Source: SAR86 cluster bacterium AG-390-O18
GTDB taxonomy: Bacteria > Pseudomonadota > Gammaproteobacteria > Magnimaribacterales > AG-339-G14
Assembly (NCBI GenBank): GCA_003279605.1
Contig: QCHF01000002.1
Coordinates: forward strand, 277,088-321,585
DNA length: 44,498 bases
Reading direction: 5' to 3'
The notes under the pieces are model-generated. The model had not been told where the DNA came from and made no database searches. It worked only from the letters and a program-made list of their open reading frames with translations. Shown piece after piece: positions 11,521-39,056 of this stretch; position 1 is the stretch's first letter, and each line of letters opens with the position of its first letter. Position numbers and translations under genes: made by a program.

Positions 11521-11549
11521 AAAAAGGCGGGTTTATCCCGCCTTTTTTT
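11521..11549. terminator. Bidirectional rho-independent terminator
   Basis: The stem GGCGGG (11526-11531) pairs with CCCGCC (11537-11542) around the loop TTTAT, flanked by an A5 run on the left and a T7 run on the right. It can therefore terminate in both directions: the 10818 gene on the plus strand and the GH5-like gene on the minus strand, whose stop codon touches the T-run. Confidence 0.9.
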
Positions 11550-33495: not shown

Positions 33496-34503
33496 TTATT
33501 CCATAGTGATGGAAATTTTCCCAAAATGTTTATTATCAATCTGATGTTGAAAAGCTCCGGCTAATTCAGCCAAATCAAAAGTATCGCTGATGACAGGTTT
33601 GATTTTAGAATTTTCTAGATATTCAACCATGGCCTTCTGTGACTGATGATTTGCCATCGCAATTCCACTGGTTCTTACTTGTTTGAGGAAAATTCGCGGC
33701 AAAACCAATTCATTTGCTGCAGGTCCACTCAATACACCAATCAAGGCAATATGACCGCCAAGTTTAACTGCCCGAATCGATTCGTTGAAAGTCTCTCCGC
33801 CACCAACTTCAACAACATGGTCAACACCTTCATTATCTGTAAGTTCCAAAACTTTTTCTCCCCACTTAGGATGTTCTTTGTAATTAATGATTTCATCTGC
33901 TCCAAGAGATTTTAATTTTTCAGCTTTTTCTTCAGATGAAGTTGTGGCTATAACTTTTGCACCCATTTCTTTAGCAAACTGTAGGGCAATAATTGAAACT
34001 CCTCCGGTTCCTTGAACCAAAACAGATTCTCCAGATTTCAATCTACCTTCATCTACGAGTGCTCGCCAAGCAGTCAAACCTGCACAAGGTAAAGTAGCTG
34101 CTTCTTGCAAAGTCCATTTCGAAGGCATTTTAGTTACCGCAGTCTCTTGAATAGCAATATACTCAGTGGCATAGCCGTCTTGATTGTCTCCAATAAAACT
34201 TAACAACTCGTAACGTGGGGGTCCATCAATCCAGTTTGGGAAACAAGCACTCATGACTTTATCCCCGACTTGCCAATTTTTTACTGCTGCTCCTATCTCA
34301 ACCACCTCACCAGCAGCGTCACCAAGCAAAACACGTCCATCATCGGTAGGAATTAATCCCAGGGCGCACATCAAATCATGGTAGTTAAGGCTACTTGCAT
34401 TAACTTTGATTAAAATTTCATTATCTTTTGGTTTAGGAATATCTAATTCATTAAGTTTGAATTTGTCCAGTCCTCCAGGTTTGGCTAGTTGCATTTGTCT
34501 CAT
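33496..34503 (-). CDS. MDR family NAD(P)-dependent alcohol dehydrogenase / quinone reductase
   Basis: A 335-aa medium-chain dehydrogenase. N-terminal GroES-like fold with VNASSLNYHDLMCALGLIP and LLGDAAGEVVEIG, then LPCAGLTAWRAL and the Rossmann motif VLVQGTGGVSIIALQFAKEMGAKVIAT. The usual catalytic zinc Cys and GHE motif are absent (NYHD, GDAAGE), so a zinc-independent quinone-reductase-type or enone-reducing activity fits better than a zinc alcohol dehydrogenase. It heads the minus-strand run with the GMC and NMO-like genes. Confidence 0.9.
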   Translation of the reverse strand: MRQMQLAKPGGLDKFKLNELDIPKPKDNEILIKVNASSLNYHDLMCALGLIPTDDGRVLLGDAAGEVVEIGAAVKNWQVGDKVMSACFPNWIDGPPRYELLSFIGDNQDGYATEYIAIQETAVTKMPSKWTLQEAATLPCAGLTAWRALVDEGRLKSGESVLVQGTGGVSIIALQFAKEMGAKVIATTSSEEKAEKLKSLGADEIINYKEHPKWGEKVLELTDNEGVDHVVEVGGGETFNESIRAVKLGGHIALIGVLSGPAANELVLPRIFLKQVRTSGIAMANHQSQKAMVEYLENSKIKPVISDTFDLAELAGAFQHQIDNKHFGKISITME

Positions 34504-34748
34504 AATTAATTCCTCGTGTATAAGATTTTTATTAGAACAAAAAAGTCCTTTTTATAGAATAAAAACAATCGATTTAAAAAGAATAAAAAAATGTTTTTTT
34601 ATAACTTTTGTGAAATAAGTTATAATTTTTTGTGAAATTTAGGCGAAATGGACTTCCTACATCTGGTAAAAAAGCCTGAAAGTACTATACTTTGCGCGAT
34701 TTTGATCGAATGTAAATTTTTGAATCAGCAAAATTTCAATTTGAGTGC
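34504..34748. other. AT-rich intergenic leader region without a recognised gene
   Basis: Between the MDR gene start and the T-tract array. It must hold the promoter of the MDR gene on the minus strand. One inverted repeat (annotated separately) is the only clear structure. A 68-codon plus-strand frame starting at 34648 and running to 34854 is Phe/Ile-rich with no ribosome site and spans the promoter elements; I do not accept it as a gene. Confidence 0.5.
34599..34625. promoter_or_regulatory. Inverted repeat upstream of the MDR gene
   Basis: TTATAAC (34599-34605) and GTTATAA (34619-34625), perfect 7-base arms 13 bases apart. The same words occur as the compact palindrome at 15093-15107. Possible operator or opposed -10 elements; chance is not excluded in this AT-rich DNA. 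Confidence 0.35.
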
Positions 34749-34795
34749 AAAAATCAGCATTTTTGTTAATTTTTCACCATTTTTGACCTTTTTTT
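34749..34795 (+). promoter_or_regulatory. Phased A/T-tract array (predicted DNA bend)
   Basis: T5, T5, T5 and T7 runs start at 34760, 34770, 34780 and 34789, i.e. in step with the helical repeat, and an A5 run lies at 34749-34753. Such phased tracts give intrinsic curvature and can act as an UP-like element. They end eight bases before a TATAAT, so they probably enhance the promoter of the 30-aa peptide gene. Confidence 0.6.
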
Positions 34796-34802
34796 ACAGA
34801 TG

Positions 34803-34808
34803 TATAAT
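34803..34808 (+). promoter_or_regulatory. -10 element TATAAT for the 30-aa peptide transcript
   Basis: A perfect TATAAT hexamer directly after TG. Candidate -35 words (TTTGAC/TTGACC around 34782-34788) have a short 14-15 base spacer, so promoter strength probably relies on the upstream phased T-tracts. The predicted mRNA has an untranslated leader of roughly 110 bases before the ATG at 34923. Confidence 0.5.
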
Positions 34809-34922
34809 GCATTCAATTTCAAAAGGACCTTATTTTAGAAAATTTCTTTTTTAAATGAACTTTTAGAAAATTAATCTCTCTAGTAAGTATCTTAATTAAC
34901 CATTAGCTTAAAGGAGTTAGCG

Positions 34923-35015
34923 ATGATCAATAGAGTGGTAGCAGGAACTTTAGGATTTTGTTTTTGCCTCTCTTTTATACTTTATTTAGGAGTAATAGGA
35001 ATTAACTTTTTCTAA
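34923..35015 (+). CDS. 30-aa hydrophobic membrane microprotein
   Basis: The frame begins MINRVVAGTLGFCF and ends GVIGINFF, with a single transmembrane helix of about 22 residues and a lone Arg near the N-terminus. An excellent ribosome site (AAAGGAG, 7 bases before ATG), a -10 upstream and a strong terminator 38 bases after the stop make a complete miniature transcription unit. I do not recognise a family. The role could be a membrane regulator of a larger complex, or the RNA itself may be the product. Confidence 0.65.
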   Translation: MINRVVAGTLGFCFCLSFILYLGVIGINFF

Positions 35016-35052
35016 TCCTATAAAGCAATAAATTTATAAAGTTCTCCCCCCT

Positions 35053-35085
35053 AATCCCCTCGCTTCGGCGAGGGGATTTCTTTTT
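35053..35085 (+). terminator. Strong rho-independent terminator
   Basis: An 11-bp stem AATCCCCTCGC / GCGAGGGGATT closed by a TTCG (UUCG) tetraloop at 35064-35067, followed by a T-rich tail through 35085. It is unusually GC-rich for this DNA. It ends the transcript of the 30-aa peptide. Confidence 0.92.
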
Positions 35086-35110
35086 CGGTAATAATATCTT
35101 AGAGTGTCGT

Positions 35111-35233
35111 ATGACCAAACAATGTGAAGAATGCTTAAAAGAATTACCATTTAGCTACTTCTCCAAACACAGAGGAGGGTTCATGGGGCTCAGGCGAGTA
35201 TGTAGATCTTGTGAACAAAAAAACTTTTGCTAG
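35111..35233 (+). CDS. 40-aa zinc-ribbon-like microprotein (two CxxC)
   Basis: The frame from ATG 35111 to TAG 35231-35233 starts MTKQCEECLKELPFSYF and has CEEC near residue 5 and CRSC near residue 31, plus a final Cys. Two CxxC knuckles about 22 residues apart are the arrangement of small zinc ribbons; the region between is basic (KHRGGFMGLRR). A nucleic-acid or protein-binding role is likely. Its stop overlaps the TTG start region of the downstream hydrolase. No clear ribosome site. Resembles short uncharacterised zinc-ribbon proteins of phage and marine bacteria. Confidence 0.6.
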   Translation: MTKQCEECLKELPFSYFSKHRGGFMGLRRVCRSCEQKNFC

Positions 35234-36168
35234 TTAAAAAAATTTATATCTACATAAAATACATTTTTTTATTTTTTTTTATAACGCTCCTTTCAGTCTT
35301 TATATTTTTTCAGCTTGAAAGATATCTAACTATCTTAGAGCTAGAAAAAAATAGTCAAATTTTAGATACGAGACTCGGTCAAATAGAATACTCAGATTCT
35401 TTAGGTGAAGGACCTGTAATCCTTCATATCCATGGTTCACCTGGAGGTTATGATCAAGTTTTTGGAATTGATAAAAAATATAAAGTCATTAGCCCTTCAA
35501 GACCGGGCTACTTAAGAACACCAATAACTTCTGGCAAAACTCCTGTAGAACAGGCAGACCTTTATAAAGCTCTTTTAGAAGAATTGGATATTGATTCTGT
35601 AATTGTCTGGGGTACTTCAGGCGGGGGACCTTCAGCTATAGAATTTGCAATAAAATATCCAGAAACAACTCGAGGACTTATCTCTTTTGAAGCGCTTACG
35701 GGAGCTTGGTTGGAAGCTAAAGAGATTGATAAATACTTTCTTACGGCATCTGATTTTAGCCTTTGGTTTTCGTTAAAGCTCTCTGGACTTTTTGGGAAAA
35801 GGAATTTAGTATCTTTTGTTGTTCCAGATGCTTCAAATCAGAATTTAATTCTCAGCGATGAAGTATCTTTTAAAGAATTGAAAAAATTAATTTGGACTAT
35901 CTGGCCTATTACAATGCGACAAGCAGGATTTTCTAATGATGCAGAAATGTTTTTTGATTTGAACTTAGATTTACAAAAAATAAGTTCTCCCACCATAGCT
36001 ATACATGGTACAAAAGACATTAATGTAGATATTAGTCATTCAATAAAATTAACTGAAGTCGTCAAAAATTCTAAATTACATAGAATTATTGGAGCGGATC
36101 ACTACATGAGTTTTAGTCATAGGAATGAAATAAGTGAAGTTGTTGAAGAATTTATTGAGAACCTTTAA
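35227..36168 (+). CDS. Alpha/beta hydrolase, membrane anchored
   Basis: A 313-aa protein with an N-terminal membrane segment (about 11-29). The fold-typical HIHGSPGG oxyanion loop (residues 67-74) and PSRPGYLRTP are followed by the nucleophile Ser131 in WGTSGGGPSA. The acid fits the Asp of IHGTKDINV, and the His is in GADHYMSFSH. Esterase, lipase or similar activity; substrate unknown. The only workable start is a TTG at 35227, which overlaps the stop of the 40-aa gene. The next gene begins within its 3' end. Confidence 0.85.
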   Translation: MLVKKIYIYIKYIFLFFFITLLSVFIFFQLERYLTILELEKNSQILDTRLGQIEYSDSLGEGPVILHIHGSPGGYDQVFGIDKKYKVISPSRPGYLRTPITSGKTPVEQADLYKALLEELDIDSVIVWGTSGGGPSAIEFAIKYPETTRGLISFEALTGAWLEAKEIDKYFLTASDFSLWFSLKLSGLFGKRNLVSFVVPDASNQNLILSDEVSFKELKKLIWTIWPITMRQAGFSNDAEMFFDLNLDLQKISSPTIAIHGTKDINVDISHSIKLTEVVKNSKLHRIIGADHYMSFSHRNEISEVVEEFIENL

Positions 36169-37603
36169 AAAATTTAAAGTATTTCTAATTCTTTGCTTTA
36201 GCATTTTACTTTTTTCATGTGGCGGCGGAGGAGGAAATACTCCAGCGCCTTCACCAAACCCTCAAACTTCAAATTTATCTTTTTCATGGGAGGTAGTTTC
36301 CCCAGAGTCACAAGGACTTTCTGCCACGAAAGTTAGCGCAGCAATGAATTTTGCAATGGAAGATGGCAGATACACTCAAGCTGCAATCATAATCAAGAAC
36401 GGAAAGATTGTCGCAGAGCAATACAGGGGTATTCAGACAAATGAAGTCAATGCTCTGGTAAATCATGCTCAAACTGCATGGACCGCTAATTCACTAAATA
36501 CGATTTATGGAGCAAGAGATGCAAATAGTCTTGTCTCAAGCTGGTCGGTAGCAAAATCTATTACCAGCATACTTTTTGGCATAGCTCAGGGCCAAGGTTA
36601 CTTTTCTGGAAGTTTAGATACTACAGCTGCAACTTATTTAACAGAATGGGCTAACGATTCAAAAAATACCATTACTATAAAAAATCTTCTGGATATGCGT
36701 TCAGGGTTAGTACCTAAATGCTACTCTGATTTAGGAGGATGGGTCGTATGCGACGCAACTACTATTTCTGGAGGCGGAGGATTCGTAAGTTCAGATGATC
36801 AATTGAACGAGTGTATCAATAATAGAACCATGGCGGGGACTGGACAAACTCATTCTTGGTATCAATCAGGCCTTTTCAATTATGATGAAGGAGATTGGGT
36901 TTATCAAAACTGCGATACGCAGATTCTTGGTGAAATTTTTTTTAGAGCAGTAGGCCAGGATATCAAAACTTTTGCAGATACTTATTTATTTTCAAAGATA
37001 GGCATAACGCCAGATTCTGCTCAATGGTGGCGAGACAATACATCTGGCGGGCAAGCGAATGGAAATTATCTTGCTTATTGTTGTTTGGATATGACCGCAA
37101 GAGATTTTGCTAAGATTGCTCTGCTTTTAATTAATGATGGAGTTTGGTTAGGAGAGCGAATAATTCCTCTTAGTTATGTTCAGGCAATTAAGAACATAAC
37201 CAGTTCGTCAGTTGTAACTGGAGACTATTTTCAAGGAACAATGAGTTATGGACTTAAATTTTGGTCTCTTTATGGTGGAAATGTTTGTGGATTAGATGCA
37301 GAAGGTAACTACCAAAATAATGGTGAAAAATGCGTTGCAGACAATACCATCATTACACCCCAAGGTTTTGATGGGCAGTATCCTTCGATGGATTTTCAAA
37401 ATAATTTAATCATGATCAGATTCAGCTTGTATCATCATGCAAACACCCTTGAAGCCACAGAGAAAAAAATGGTGGCAGATGCTCCTCCTGCTCCTGTAAA
37501 TTATATTCTTACTGCTCCTGTAGTAGCTACGAGTCCTGACTCTCCTTTAAATATAACTTTTCCTCAGGCAACTTTTTGGTACATGCTAAATAATAGCAAT
37601 TAA
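36134..37603 (+). CDS. Beta-lactamase-family serine hydrolase, lipoprotein
   Basis: A roughly 489-aa protein with a lipoprotein signal (ILLFSC, then a run of five Gly). The Ser-x-x-Lys motif of class C-like serine hydrolases is SVAK at about 138-141. The second motif lies in VYQNCDTQILGE and a late GFDGQYP segment replaces the usual KTG-like box. These are usually esterases or peptidases rather than antibiotic-resistance enzymes. The start is uncertain: GTG 36134 overlaps the previous gene by 35 bases; TTG 36155 gives a more usual signal peptide. Its stop overlaps the convergent selO stop. Confidence 0.83.
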   Translation: MKLLKNLLRTFKKFKVFLILCFSILLFSCGGGGGNTPAPSPNPQTSNLSFSWEVVSPESQGLSATKVSAAMNFAMEDGRYTQAAIIIKNGKIVAEQYRGIQTNEVNALVNHAQTAWTANSLNTIYGARDANSLVSSWSVAKSITSILFGIAQGQGYFSGSLDTTAATYLTEWANDSKNTITIKNLLDMRSGLVPKCYSDLGGWVVCDATTISGGGGFVSSDDQLNECINNRTMAGTGQTHSWYQSGLFNYDEGDWVYQNCDTQILGEIFFRAVGQDIKTFADTYLFSKIGITPDSAQWWRDNTSGGQANGNYLAYCCLDMTARDFAKIALLLINDGVWLGERIIPLSYVQAIKNITSSSVVTGDYFQGTMSYGLKFWSLYGGNVCGLDAEGNYQNNGEKCVADNTIITPQGFDGQYPSMDFQNNLIMIRFSLYHHANTLEATEKKMVADAPPAPVNYILTAPVVATSPDSPLNITFPQATFWYMLNNSN

Positions 37604-39024
37604 GAAGAGCAGGATATTTCTAATTTGTTAGCCCATTCAGGGGGAACTTCTGAAAATTTATTATAATTTTCATTTTTAAGATAAGGCTTTTTTAAAACCT
37701 CTATCAAAAAATTCAATGCCGAAAAGTCTCCAATTTCAGCAGCTTGTATAGCTTCTTGTGCCAAGTAATTTCTTAAAATGTATTGAGGATTTGATGAATT
37801 CATCAAGGCATTTCTTTCCGTTTCATTTGAAGCTTCTCTATCTAACCTTTCTTGATATTTTTTGAACCAAGCTTGTTCGACTTCATCTGTAAAATCGTTA
37901 TTACCTTCTGCAAGAGCACGAAAGGTATTTGTATAGTCTTTTTTATGATCTTTCATCCAAGTTAATAGTTCTTCTACCAATTTAAGATCGTCTTTTTCTT
38001 TTTTAAATAAACCAAGTTTTTTTCTATAAAGCCTAGTAAGTTCATCGTAAAAAATTTTTTCATAGGAATTGATAATTTCTTTGGTTCGCTCAATTTCAAT
38101 ATGATCCTTTAGAGCTGCAGCTAGAGCATGACAATTCCAAAGACCAATTGAAGGTTGGTTATTAAAAGCGTAACGGCCGCTATGATCTGAGTGATTGCAG
38201 ATAAAACCAGGATTGTATTCATCTAAAAAGCCAAAAGGTCCAAAATCAAAAGTCTCTCCTAAGACAGACATGTTATCGGTATTCATTACGCCATGAGCAA
38301 AACCAAAAGCCTGCCATTTGGCAATAAGTCTTGCTGTCGAAGAAACTATTTTTTCAAATAAATCGGTGTAACCATCTTTGGATTCTTTCAACTCAGGAAA
38401 ATAACTTTCAATTACATGATTGAGTAAAATTGGAATGAATTCTGATTTTTTGTTGTGCATGAGATATTCAAAATGCCCAAAACGAATGTGAGTTTTTGCA
38501 ACTCTTATCATCATTGCCCCAAATTCGGTCGTTTCCCTAAAGACCGGTTCATCGCTACCGATCATTATCAGCGACCTTGAGCTTGGAATGCCAAGATGAT
38601 GCATAGCCTCACCACACAAATATTCTCTGATGGTTGATCTCAAAACTGCGCGGCCATCACCAAATCTTGAGTAGGGTGTTTTGCCAGCACCTTTAATATG
38701 TAAATCCATTAACCCTTCTTTGGTTTGTAATTGGCCCAATAAAATACCTCTACCGTCTCCCAATTGTGGGACCCAAGAACCAAACTGATGTCCGGCGTAT
38801 GCCATTGATAGAGGCGCGCTGTGTTTAAAAGCTTTATTCCCATTCACATATAGCATCAAATCTTCAGGATCAAGATCTTTTGGAAGCCCTAAAAGCTCTG
38901 CAAGCTCTTCATTAAAATGAATCAGTTTTGGATTATCAAAAGGAGTCCAATTTTGCTTGTGAAAAAAATCTTCCGGCAAATCGGCAAAGGGATTTGAAAA
39001 TTTTAAGCTTTCTAGTTCCTGCAT
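37600..39024 (-). CDS. selO: SelO protein adenylyltransferase (YdiU family)
   Basis: A 474-aa pseudokinase-fold enzyme that transfers AMP to Ser/Thr/Tyr of target proteins, linked to oxidative-stress response. Signatures: SMAYAGHQFGSWVPQLGDGRGILLGQL, HIKGAGKTPYSRFGDGRAVLRSTIREYLC, HGVMNTDNMSVLG and FDFGPFGFLDEY. It ends with CSS, the conserved C-terminal cysteine segment. The start MQELESLKF at 39024 is preferred to a TTG nine bases upstream. Divergent from the VOC gene with only 32 bases between starts. Confidence 0.95.
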   Translation of the reverse strand: MQELESLKFSNPFADLPEDFFHKQNWTPFDNPKLIHFNEELAELLGLPKDLDPEDLMLYVNGNKAFKHSAPLSMAYAGHQFGSWVPQLGDGRGILLGQLQTKEGLMDLHIKGAGKTPYSRFGDGRAVLRSTIREYLCGEAMHHLGIPSSRSLIMIGSDEPVFRETTEFGAMMIRVAKTHIRFGHFEYLMHNKKSEFIPILLNHVIESYFPELKESKDGYTDLFEKIVSSTARLIAKWQAFGFAHGVMNTDNMSVLGETFDFGPFGFLDEYNPGFICNHSDHSGRYAFNNQPSIGLWNCHALAAALKDHIEIERTKEIINSYEKIFYDELTRLYRKKLGLFKKEKDDLKLVEELLTWMKDHKKDYTNTFRALAEGNNDFTDEVEQAWFKKYQERLDREASNETERNALMNSSNPQYILRNYLAQEAIQAAEIGDFSALNFLIEVLKKPYLKNENYNKFSEVPPEWANKLEISCSS

Positions 39025-39056
39025 ATTTATCAATTATATAGGTTAGAATTTATCTC

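Follow-up and report, generated by a model that had tools for sequence, protein, structure and literature searches.

Organization of the locus

The window analysed here is a stretch of 44,498 nucleotides from the 1.28-Mb genome of SAR86 cluster bacterium AG-390-O18. Its longest gap between open reading frames of at least 90 amino acids measures 723 nt (34504-35226), which confirms the preliminary description of this gap as the longest one without a long gene. It is bounded by the divergent gene of a Zn-dependent dehydrogenase (33496-34503, minus strand) and by an alpha/beta-hydrolase gene (35227-36168, plus strand). The 30-codon hydrophobic frame reported earlier for this gap was found again at 34923-35015 (plus strand, stop included); it encodes a 30-amino-acid peptide, MINRVVAGTLGFCFCLSFILYLGVIGINFF, and is called the microgene below. 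Past its terminator lies a second short gene (35111-35233, plus strand), absent from the preliminary description, the product of which is a protein of 40 amino acids with four cysteines. Further downstream the convergent selO gene is located (37600-39033, minus strand). The dehydrogenase gene and selO are the constant upstream and downstream neighbours of the microgene in the SAR86 family to which the genome belongs, of which 40 genomes in four genera (g1 to g4) were compared; in the window selO is displaced by two inserted genes.

The hydrolase gene and a beta-lactamase-like gene (35227-37603) follow the microgene in only two of the 20 loci read, the window and G015, and in the other loci SelO comes after the microgene without them. 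In the upstream part of the gap a palindrome-like sequence, TTATAACTT...AAGTTATAA (34600-34636), was spotted by eye; it might serve as a regulator site for both the microgene and the divergent dehydrogenase gene.

Promoter, leader and ribosome binding site

The upstream part of the promoter consists of four T-tracts on the plus strand (34760-34795) in a phase of about 10 bases, located at 34760-64, 34770-74, 34780-84 and 34789-95. They are followed by the -10 element TGTATAAT (34801-34808, plus strand), which includes a TATAAT at 34803-08. The T5/T5/T5/T7 tracts and the TATAAT of the preliminary description are thus present as described; TGTATAAT is identical in all 13 g1 loci and all four tracts are kept in nine of them. 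In g1 the tracts (at least 4 T) lie at about -41, -31, -20 and -12 from TGTATAAT, and the intervening bases vary. Within the window, four tracts of at least five T occur within 70 bases at four places on the plus strand and one on the minus strand. Two of the four plus-strand clusters overlap at the microgene (34717-34784 and 34760-34795), and only there are four such tracts packed into 36 bases. TATAAT by itself is common in the window, with 10 sites on the plus and 11 on the minus strand. A canonical extended -10 element has the form TGnTATAAT. Here the TG directly abuts the TATAAT and is one base too close, so that the element does not qualify as such.

A TATAAT within 130 bases of the start codon was found in five of six g2 loci, in all seven g3 loci and in none of the six g4 loci, and where present in g2 and g3 it is nearer to the start than in g1; the promoter is therefore not one frozen block throughout the family.

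Transcription is predicted to start near 34815, which would give a leader of about 108 nt (34815-34922, plus strand), with the last 30-odd bases as the part conserved in g1. The ribosome binding site AAAGGAG was confirmed at 34910-34916 (plus strand), and its GGAG is kept in the alignments of all four genera. In the 444 kb scanned, AAGGAG precedes only 14 of 447 ORFs, an undercount because ORF starts were taken from the longest frames. Folding of six g1 loci predicted a weak hairpin (-4.4 to -6.0 kcal/mol) around the ribosome binding site. The quality of the promoter and of the ribosome binding site would suggest high expression.

Terminator and second short gene

The microgene is followed by an intrinsic terminator (35053-35085, plus strand), which is composed of an 11-bp hairpin (35053-35078) with a CUUCGG loop in the window and a T-tail. 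With seven G-C pairs the hairpin ranks first in the four scans spanning the window. However, the runner-up at 11521-11547 has six, and the earlier claim that the terminator is by far the strongest of the window is overstated. Likewise, the UUCG terminator is present in the window, but within g1 only the hairpin is retained and the loop is not always UUCG. The long leader fared similarly: it was found in the window with its length of about 108 nt, but is shortened in two of the 13 g1 loci (G004 and G009). Judged from these alignments, the long leader and the UUCG loop are features of the species or genus only.

The gene of the four-Cys protein keeps its position across the four genera. All four cysteines were found in 23 of 32 loci by a regular expression applied within 420 nt of the microgene, and some of the remaining nine loci show decayed four-Cys frames. 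The protein is similar over its whole length to phage endonuclease VII / HNH / Lar-like families (best E 1.5e-6) and looks like the zinc-ribbon part of these proteins. As a terminator separates the two short frames and the second gene keeps its place in four genera, the microgene could be read as a leader peptide with an attenuator controlling the four-Cys gene. However, microgene and terminator persist in the nine loci where the regular expression found no four-Cys gene. In addition, the peptide contains no run of one regulatory codon, its conserved residues being scattered glycines, cysteine and tyrosine, and we consider attenuation very unlikely.

Conservation and selection of the microgene

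A protein search (E <= 1) detected the microgene in 32 of the 40 family genomes, and with a profile a further copy, cut by a contig end, was detected, which brings the count to 33 of 40 with all four genera represented. It is present in each of the 31 family genomes where both flanking genes were found. Among 21 loci read with their flanks, the same Zn-dependent dehydrogenase gene lies upstream and SelO downstream in all 20 with a readable copy; the remaining one (G033) runs off the end of its contig. In one of the seven genomes without the microgene (G003) the dehydrogenase gene and its upstream DNA lie at a contig end, and in the other six neither flanking gene was matched at the cut-offs used, so the locus is possibly just unassembled in these genomes. 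At the nucleotide level, a 551-bp segment of the locus matches, in part or as a whole, 14 of the 16 genomes of the genus, the source genome included. According to the preliminary description, the gene would have to be given up if relatives lacked a conserved peptide or promoter, and both were found to be conserved.

Between genera the peptide can be aligned, the leader cannot. In a 14-row alignment M1, G8, G11, C15, Y21, G23 and F30 are invariant across genera. Summed over the four genera, 23, 8 and 53 variable sites fall on the first, second and third codon position, respectively (chi-square p 7e-9 against even use), and pN/pS is 0.123 in g1 (13 loci), 0.122 in g2 (6 loci), 0.119 in g3 (7 loci) and 0.184 in g4 (6 loci). 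The synonymous-rich codon change that had been proposed as a check on the frame is thus seen within each genus. A chance ORF was ruled out by the family-wide orthologs, the codon-position bias and the pN/pS values. On this comparative evidence a real gene under purifying selection is encoded at 34923-35015.

Outside the family no convincing homolog was obtained when 203 genomes of the order were searched with the profile; among the 163 order genomes outside the family, 11 gave profile matches with E of about 0.02-0.09. In other families, five dehydrogenase loci and 15 SelO loci were examined with the strict core motif, and none had a matching peptide. An IUPAC pattern of the core matched 30 stretches in the species-genome collection, all of them SAR86 or MAGs already in our set (27 records named SAR86 cluster and three Gammaproteobacteria MAG), and nothing outside the SAR86 records of the set. 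No family of Pfam or NCBIfam matches the microprotein, and its best match in PHROGs has an E of 0.17. As far as these searches reach, the microprotein gene is restricted to one SAR86 family and is new as a family within the libraries searched.

A phage origin was rejected, as tblastn gave no match in the phage collection. The same applies to a tRNA or known RNA: no tRNA and no Rfam match at gathering score was obtained, and seven weak Rfam matches (E 0.33-4.1), all far below the gathering scores, were dismissed as chance.

Predicted structure and likely role of the peptide

AlphaFold predicts one helix spanning residues 2-29 with a mean pLDDT of 92.2 and a pTM of 0.44. Together with the ortholog conservation, the fixed synteny and the synonymous-rich change, the predicted helix supports the membrane microprotein that the preliminary description had proposed. 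By comparison, the promoter block in g1, the ribosome binding site, a hydrophobic frame of 30-34 amino acids and the terminator are kept between the same genes, in four genera. From these features we infer that the product would be a single-pass inner-membrane peptide. By the positive-inside rule its N-terminus should lie inside in g1, g2 and g4; in g3 the N-terminus is uncharged. The invariant G8, G11, C15, Y21 and G23 might be packed against a larger membrane protein, in which case the peptide would be a small subunit with an accessory or regulatory function in a complex of the inner membrane.

Type I toxins are small hydrophobic peptides, for which small size, hydrophobicity and a long leader are typical. 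The microprotein matches them in size, in hydrophobicity and in the long leader of g1, and could be a peptide that depolarizes the membrane and is restrained by an antisense RNA. However, it is found as one copy per genome (bar one weak second match), in a position that does not change among the four genera, and has been under long purifying selection. The phage records hold no match to it, and a consensus scan gave no minus-strand promoter with 9/12 matches between 34503 and 35226. A toxin is therefore an unlikely interpretation.

For the accessory role there are known counterparts, as CydX and KdpF are small single-helix subunits of membrane complexes. Like these, the microprotein has about 30 residues, one predicted transmembrane helix and conserved small residues. 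In difference to them it has no match in Pfam or NCBIfam, and its gene stands alone between the dehydrogenase gene and selO, with no adjoining genes for a membrane complex. Against any specific function it has to be counted that a hydrophobic helix of 30 amino acids offers little room and that the pTM is 0.44. An accessory role, as a small subunit of a complex in the inner membrane, nevertheless appears to be the likeliest and most economical one. The locus thus holds a stand-alone gene of the SAR86 family. Taken together, we regard it as probable that its product is a membrane peptide serving as a small accessory or regulatory subunit, and that the C-run described below is perhaps an RNA docking site.

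SAR86 bacteria abound in the surface ocean and are difficult to cultivate, so that genes below the size of routine annotation go unseen there. Among the papers listed in the literature searches, none dealt with the microprotein gene or with small RNAs of SAR86. A conserved orphan membrane microprotein hints at a hitherto unrecognised partner in the membrane.

The C-run in the 3' untranslated region

The 3' UTR of the microgene (35016-35052, plus strand) contains UCUCCCCCC in the window, with a run of C at 35046-35051 and the motif UCUCCCCC at 35043-35050. A run of five to eight C precedes the terminator in all 32 loci, and in g1 one part of the 3' UTR varies as little as the frame. TCTCCCCC was found in 25 of the 32 loci, that is in 25 of 25 of g1, g2 and g4 and in none of the seven of g3, which carry TTTCCCCC or similar in its place. 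In folds of the 3' ends of eight loci the C-run is predicted to be mostly unpaired, half paired in G002 and partly paired in others; when the full-length RNA is folded, the UCUCCCCC motif is mostly paired at its first three bases. Pairing of the C-run with the ribosome binding site of the same message, merely GGAG/CUCC by eye, was dismissed.

Such constancy outside the frame would also be expected if the functional product were a non-coding RNA and the frame incidental. However, the strong codon-position bias, a pN/pS of 0.12-0.18 in four genera and a cross-genus alignment that is possible for the peptide and not for the leader leave this explanation hardly tenable.

In 444 kb of the source genome, of which 20.1 kb are non-coding, 15 non-coding runs of at least five C were found. 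Apart from that of the microgene, such runs lie at the 3' ends of pstS, a TonB receptor gene and the glnK-amtB operon. For amtB, 30 loci (L214-L243) were read from the 32 genomes with an amtB match, and a C/U-rich stretch with CUCCC or longer directly follows the stop codon in all 30. Among 21 non-coding terminators in the 444 kb, C5 lies within 40 nt upstream in three and G5 in one. These findings would fit with a gene as described above, the C-run of which pairs with no RNA and serves termination or protection of the RNA end, for example as a pyrimidine site bound by Rho or a cold-shock protein. They speak for it through the stretches behind amtB, the runs behind pstS and the TonB receptor gene, and the excess of C5 over G5 before terminators. 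However, the numbers are small, those for the terminators too small to carry weight, and it is the exact UCUCCCCC, not any pyrimidine run, that is kept in the three genera with the G-loop RNA described in the following section. A role in termination or end protection is a genuine possibility, though not the outcome we would expect.

A candidate small RNA beside proteorhodopsin

For the C-run as a docking site for another RNA, which is the weaker part of our interpretation, the simplest partner would be a candidate sRNA that is encoded beside proteorhodopsin. The candidate (L298; G000, contig C1, 128421-128461, minus strand; orthologs L274-L297) is convergent with the proteorhodopsin gene. At each of the 24 proteorhodopsin loci that were read in g1, g2 and g4, a TTGAC box is followed by a hairpin with an invariant GGGGGAGA loop. 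The candidate promoter, assigned by eye, is TTGAC[CG], 17 bases and TATATT, TATCTT or TAAATT. The 3' end of the candidate sRNA would be the rhodopsin terminator read backwards, which would then be shared and bidirectional.

In 10 distinct sequences of the candidate, which form three related groups, 100 of 100 stem cells pair and three of the 10 pairs show change on both sides. Only the stem was counted, because the alignments A2 and A3 offset the G-run of g1 by two columns from that of g2 and g4. The stem covariation score and the number of paired cells exceed all 500 shuffles and every slide; two of the five stem measures fail against the shuffles, as the both-sided pairs were reached by 50 and the further pair types by 496 of 500. 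With a covariance model, 25 of the 202 order genomes searched, each belonging to g1, g2 or g4, showed a single strong copy (E < 1e-10), and the nine g3 genomes showed no strong copy. The six g3 proteorhodopsin ends that were read are without the candidate sRNA. Weaker matches to the model were obtained in G177, which belongs to another family (E 4.4e-5), and in about eleven genomes at E 0.003-0.1.

The GGGGGAGA loop is the complement of UCUCCCCC, which the C-run contains in g1, g2 and g4. The loop motif is predicted to be fully unpaired in g2, and its GAGA half is predicted to be paired in g1 and g4. That UCUCCCCC and the loop share their distribution over the genera is a single evolutionary contrast, g3 against the rest, and thus not independent proof of pairing. 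When 466 3' windows of the genome were ranked by plain duplex energy, a measure that ignores accessibility and counts pairs outside the loop in windows that include downstream coding DNA, the C-run of the TonB receptor gene came first, the microgene fourth and amtB eleventh. Matched genera cannot be told from unmatched ones by their duplex energies. Pairing between the C-run and the candidate sRNA is plausible, and an RNA at the C-run would either control the message at its 3' end or allow the message to titrate the candidate sRNA.

Hfq (PF17209) was detected in none of the 40 family genomes, in a search whose control was positive in five of 14 known genomes (E. coli and four others). A motif search for CsrA in the loci read, which make up only part of the genome, gave none. 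According to the RosA report, RoxS and FsrA of Bacillus subtilis are C-rich sRNAs and RosA is a G-rich sponge, and the system operates in a species for which no RNA hub protein is known (PMC8216469). The SAR86 case would resemble it in C-rich regions on one side and a G-rich region, predicted to be at least partly exposed, on the other, and Hfq was not detected in the 40 genomes. In contrast to RoxS/FsrA-RosA (PMC8216469), the C-rich element of SAR86 belongs to the 3' ends of mRNAs, the G-rich partner would be a short hairpin beside proteorhodopsin and the pairing is a candidate one. GlnZ, as described in its report, is an sRNA released from the glnA 3' UTR that needs Hfq and RNase E (PMC9731577). 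Shared with GlnZ are a conserved stretch from stop codon to terminator, putatively acting beyond the message in SAR86, and for amtB the link to nitrogen. However, GlnZ depends on Hfq (PMC9731577), which was undetected in the SAR86 family.

In its widest form the idea reads that a SAR86 family lacking detectable Hfq operates an RNA circuit based on C:G pairing, in which an sRNA antisense to the proteorhodopsin end reads the C-run tags of the microprotein message, of amtB and partly of pstS and the TonB receptor gene. As a lead the RNA circuit has moderate support; taken as a full claim we consider it speculative and rather doubtful. If true, it would tie light-driven energy to nutrient uptake, and the microprotein message would be target and membrane effector at once. 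The C-run and G-loop elements in genomes without detectable Hfq provide a directly testable idea for the post-transcriptional regulation of nutrient genes, which applies to small-genome ocean bacteria.

Summed over the 40 genomes, TTCTCCCCC is more common than its reversed control (235 versus 121). This excess says little because five of the seven sites in the source genome fall inside long frames and GGGGGAGAA resembles ribosome binding sites. In two g3 genomes TTCTCCCCC was observed in a predicted intergenic hairpin loop near position 1500 of the loci L150 and L148, of which L150 was folded.
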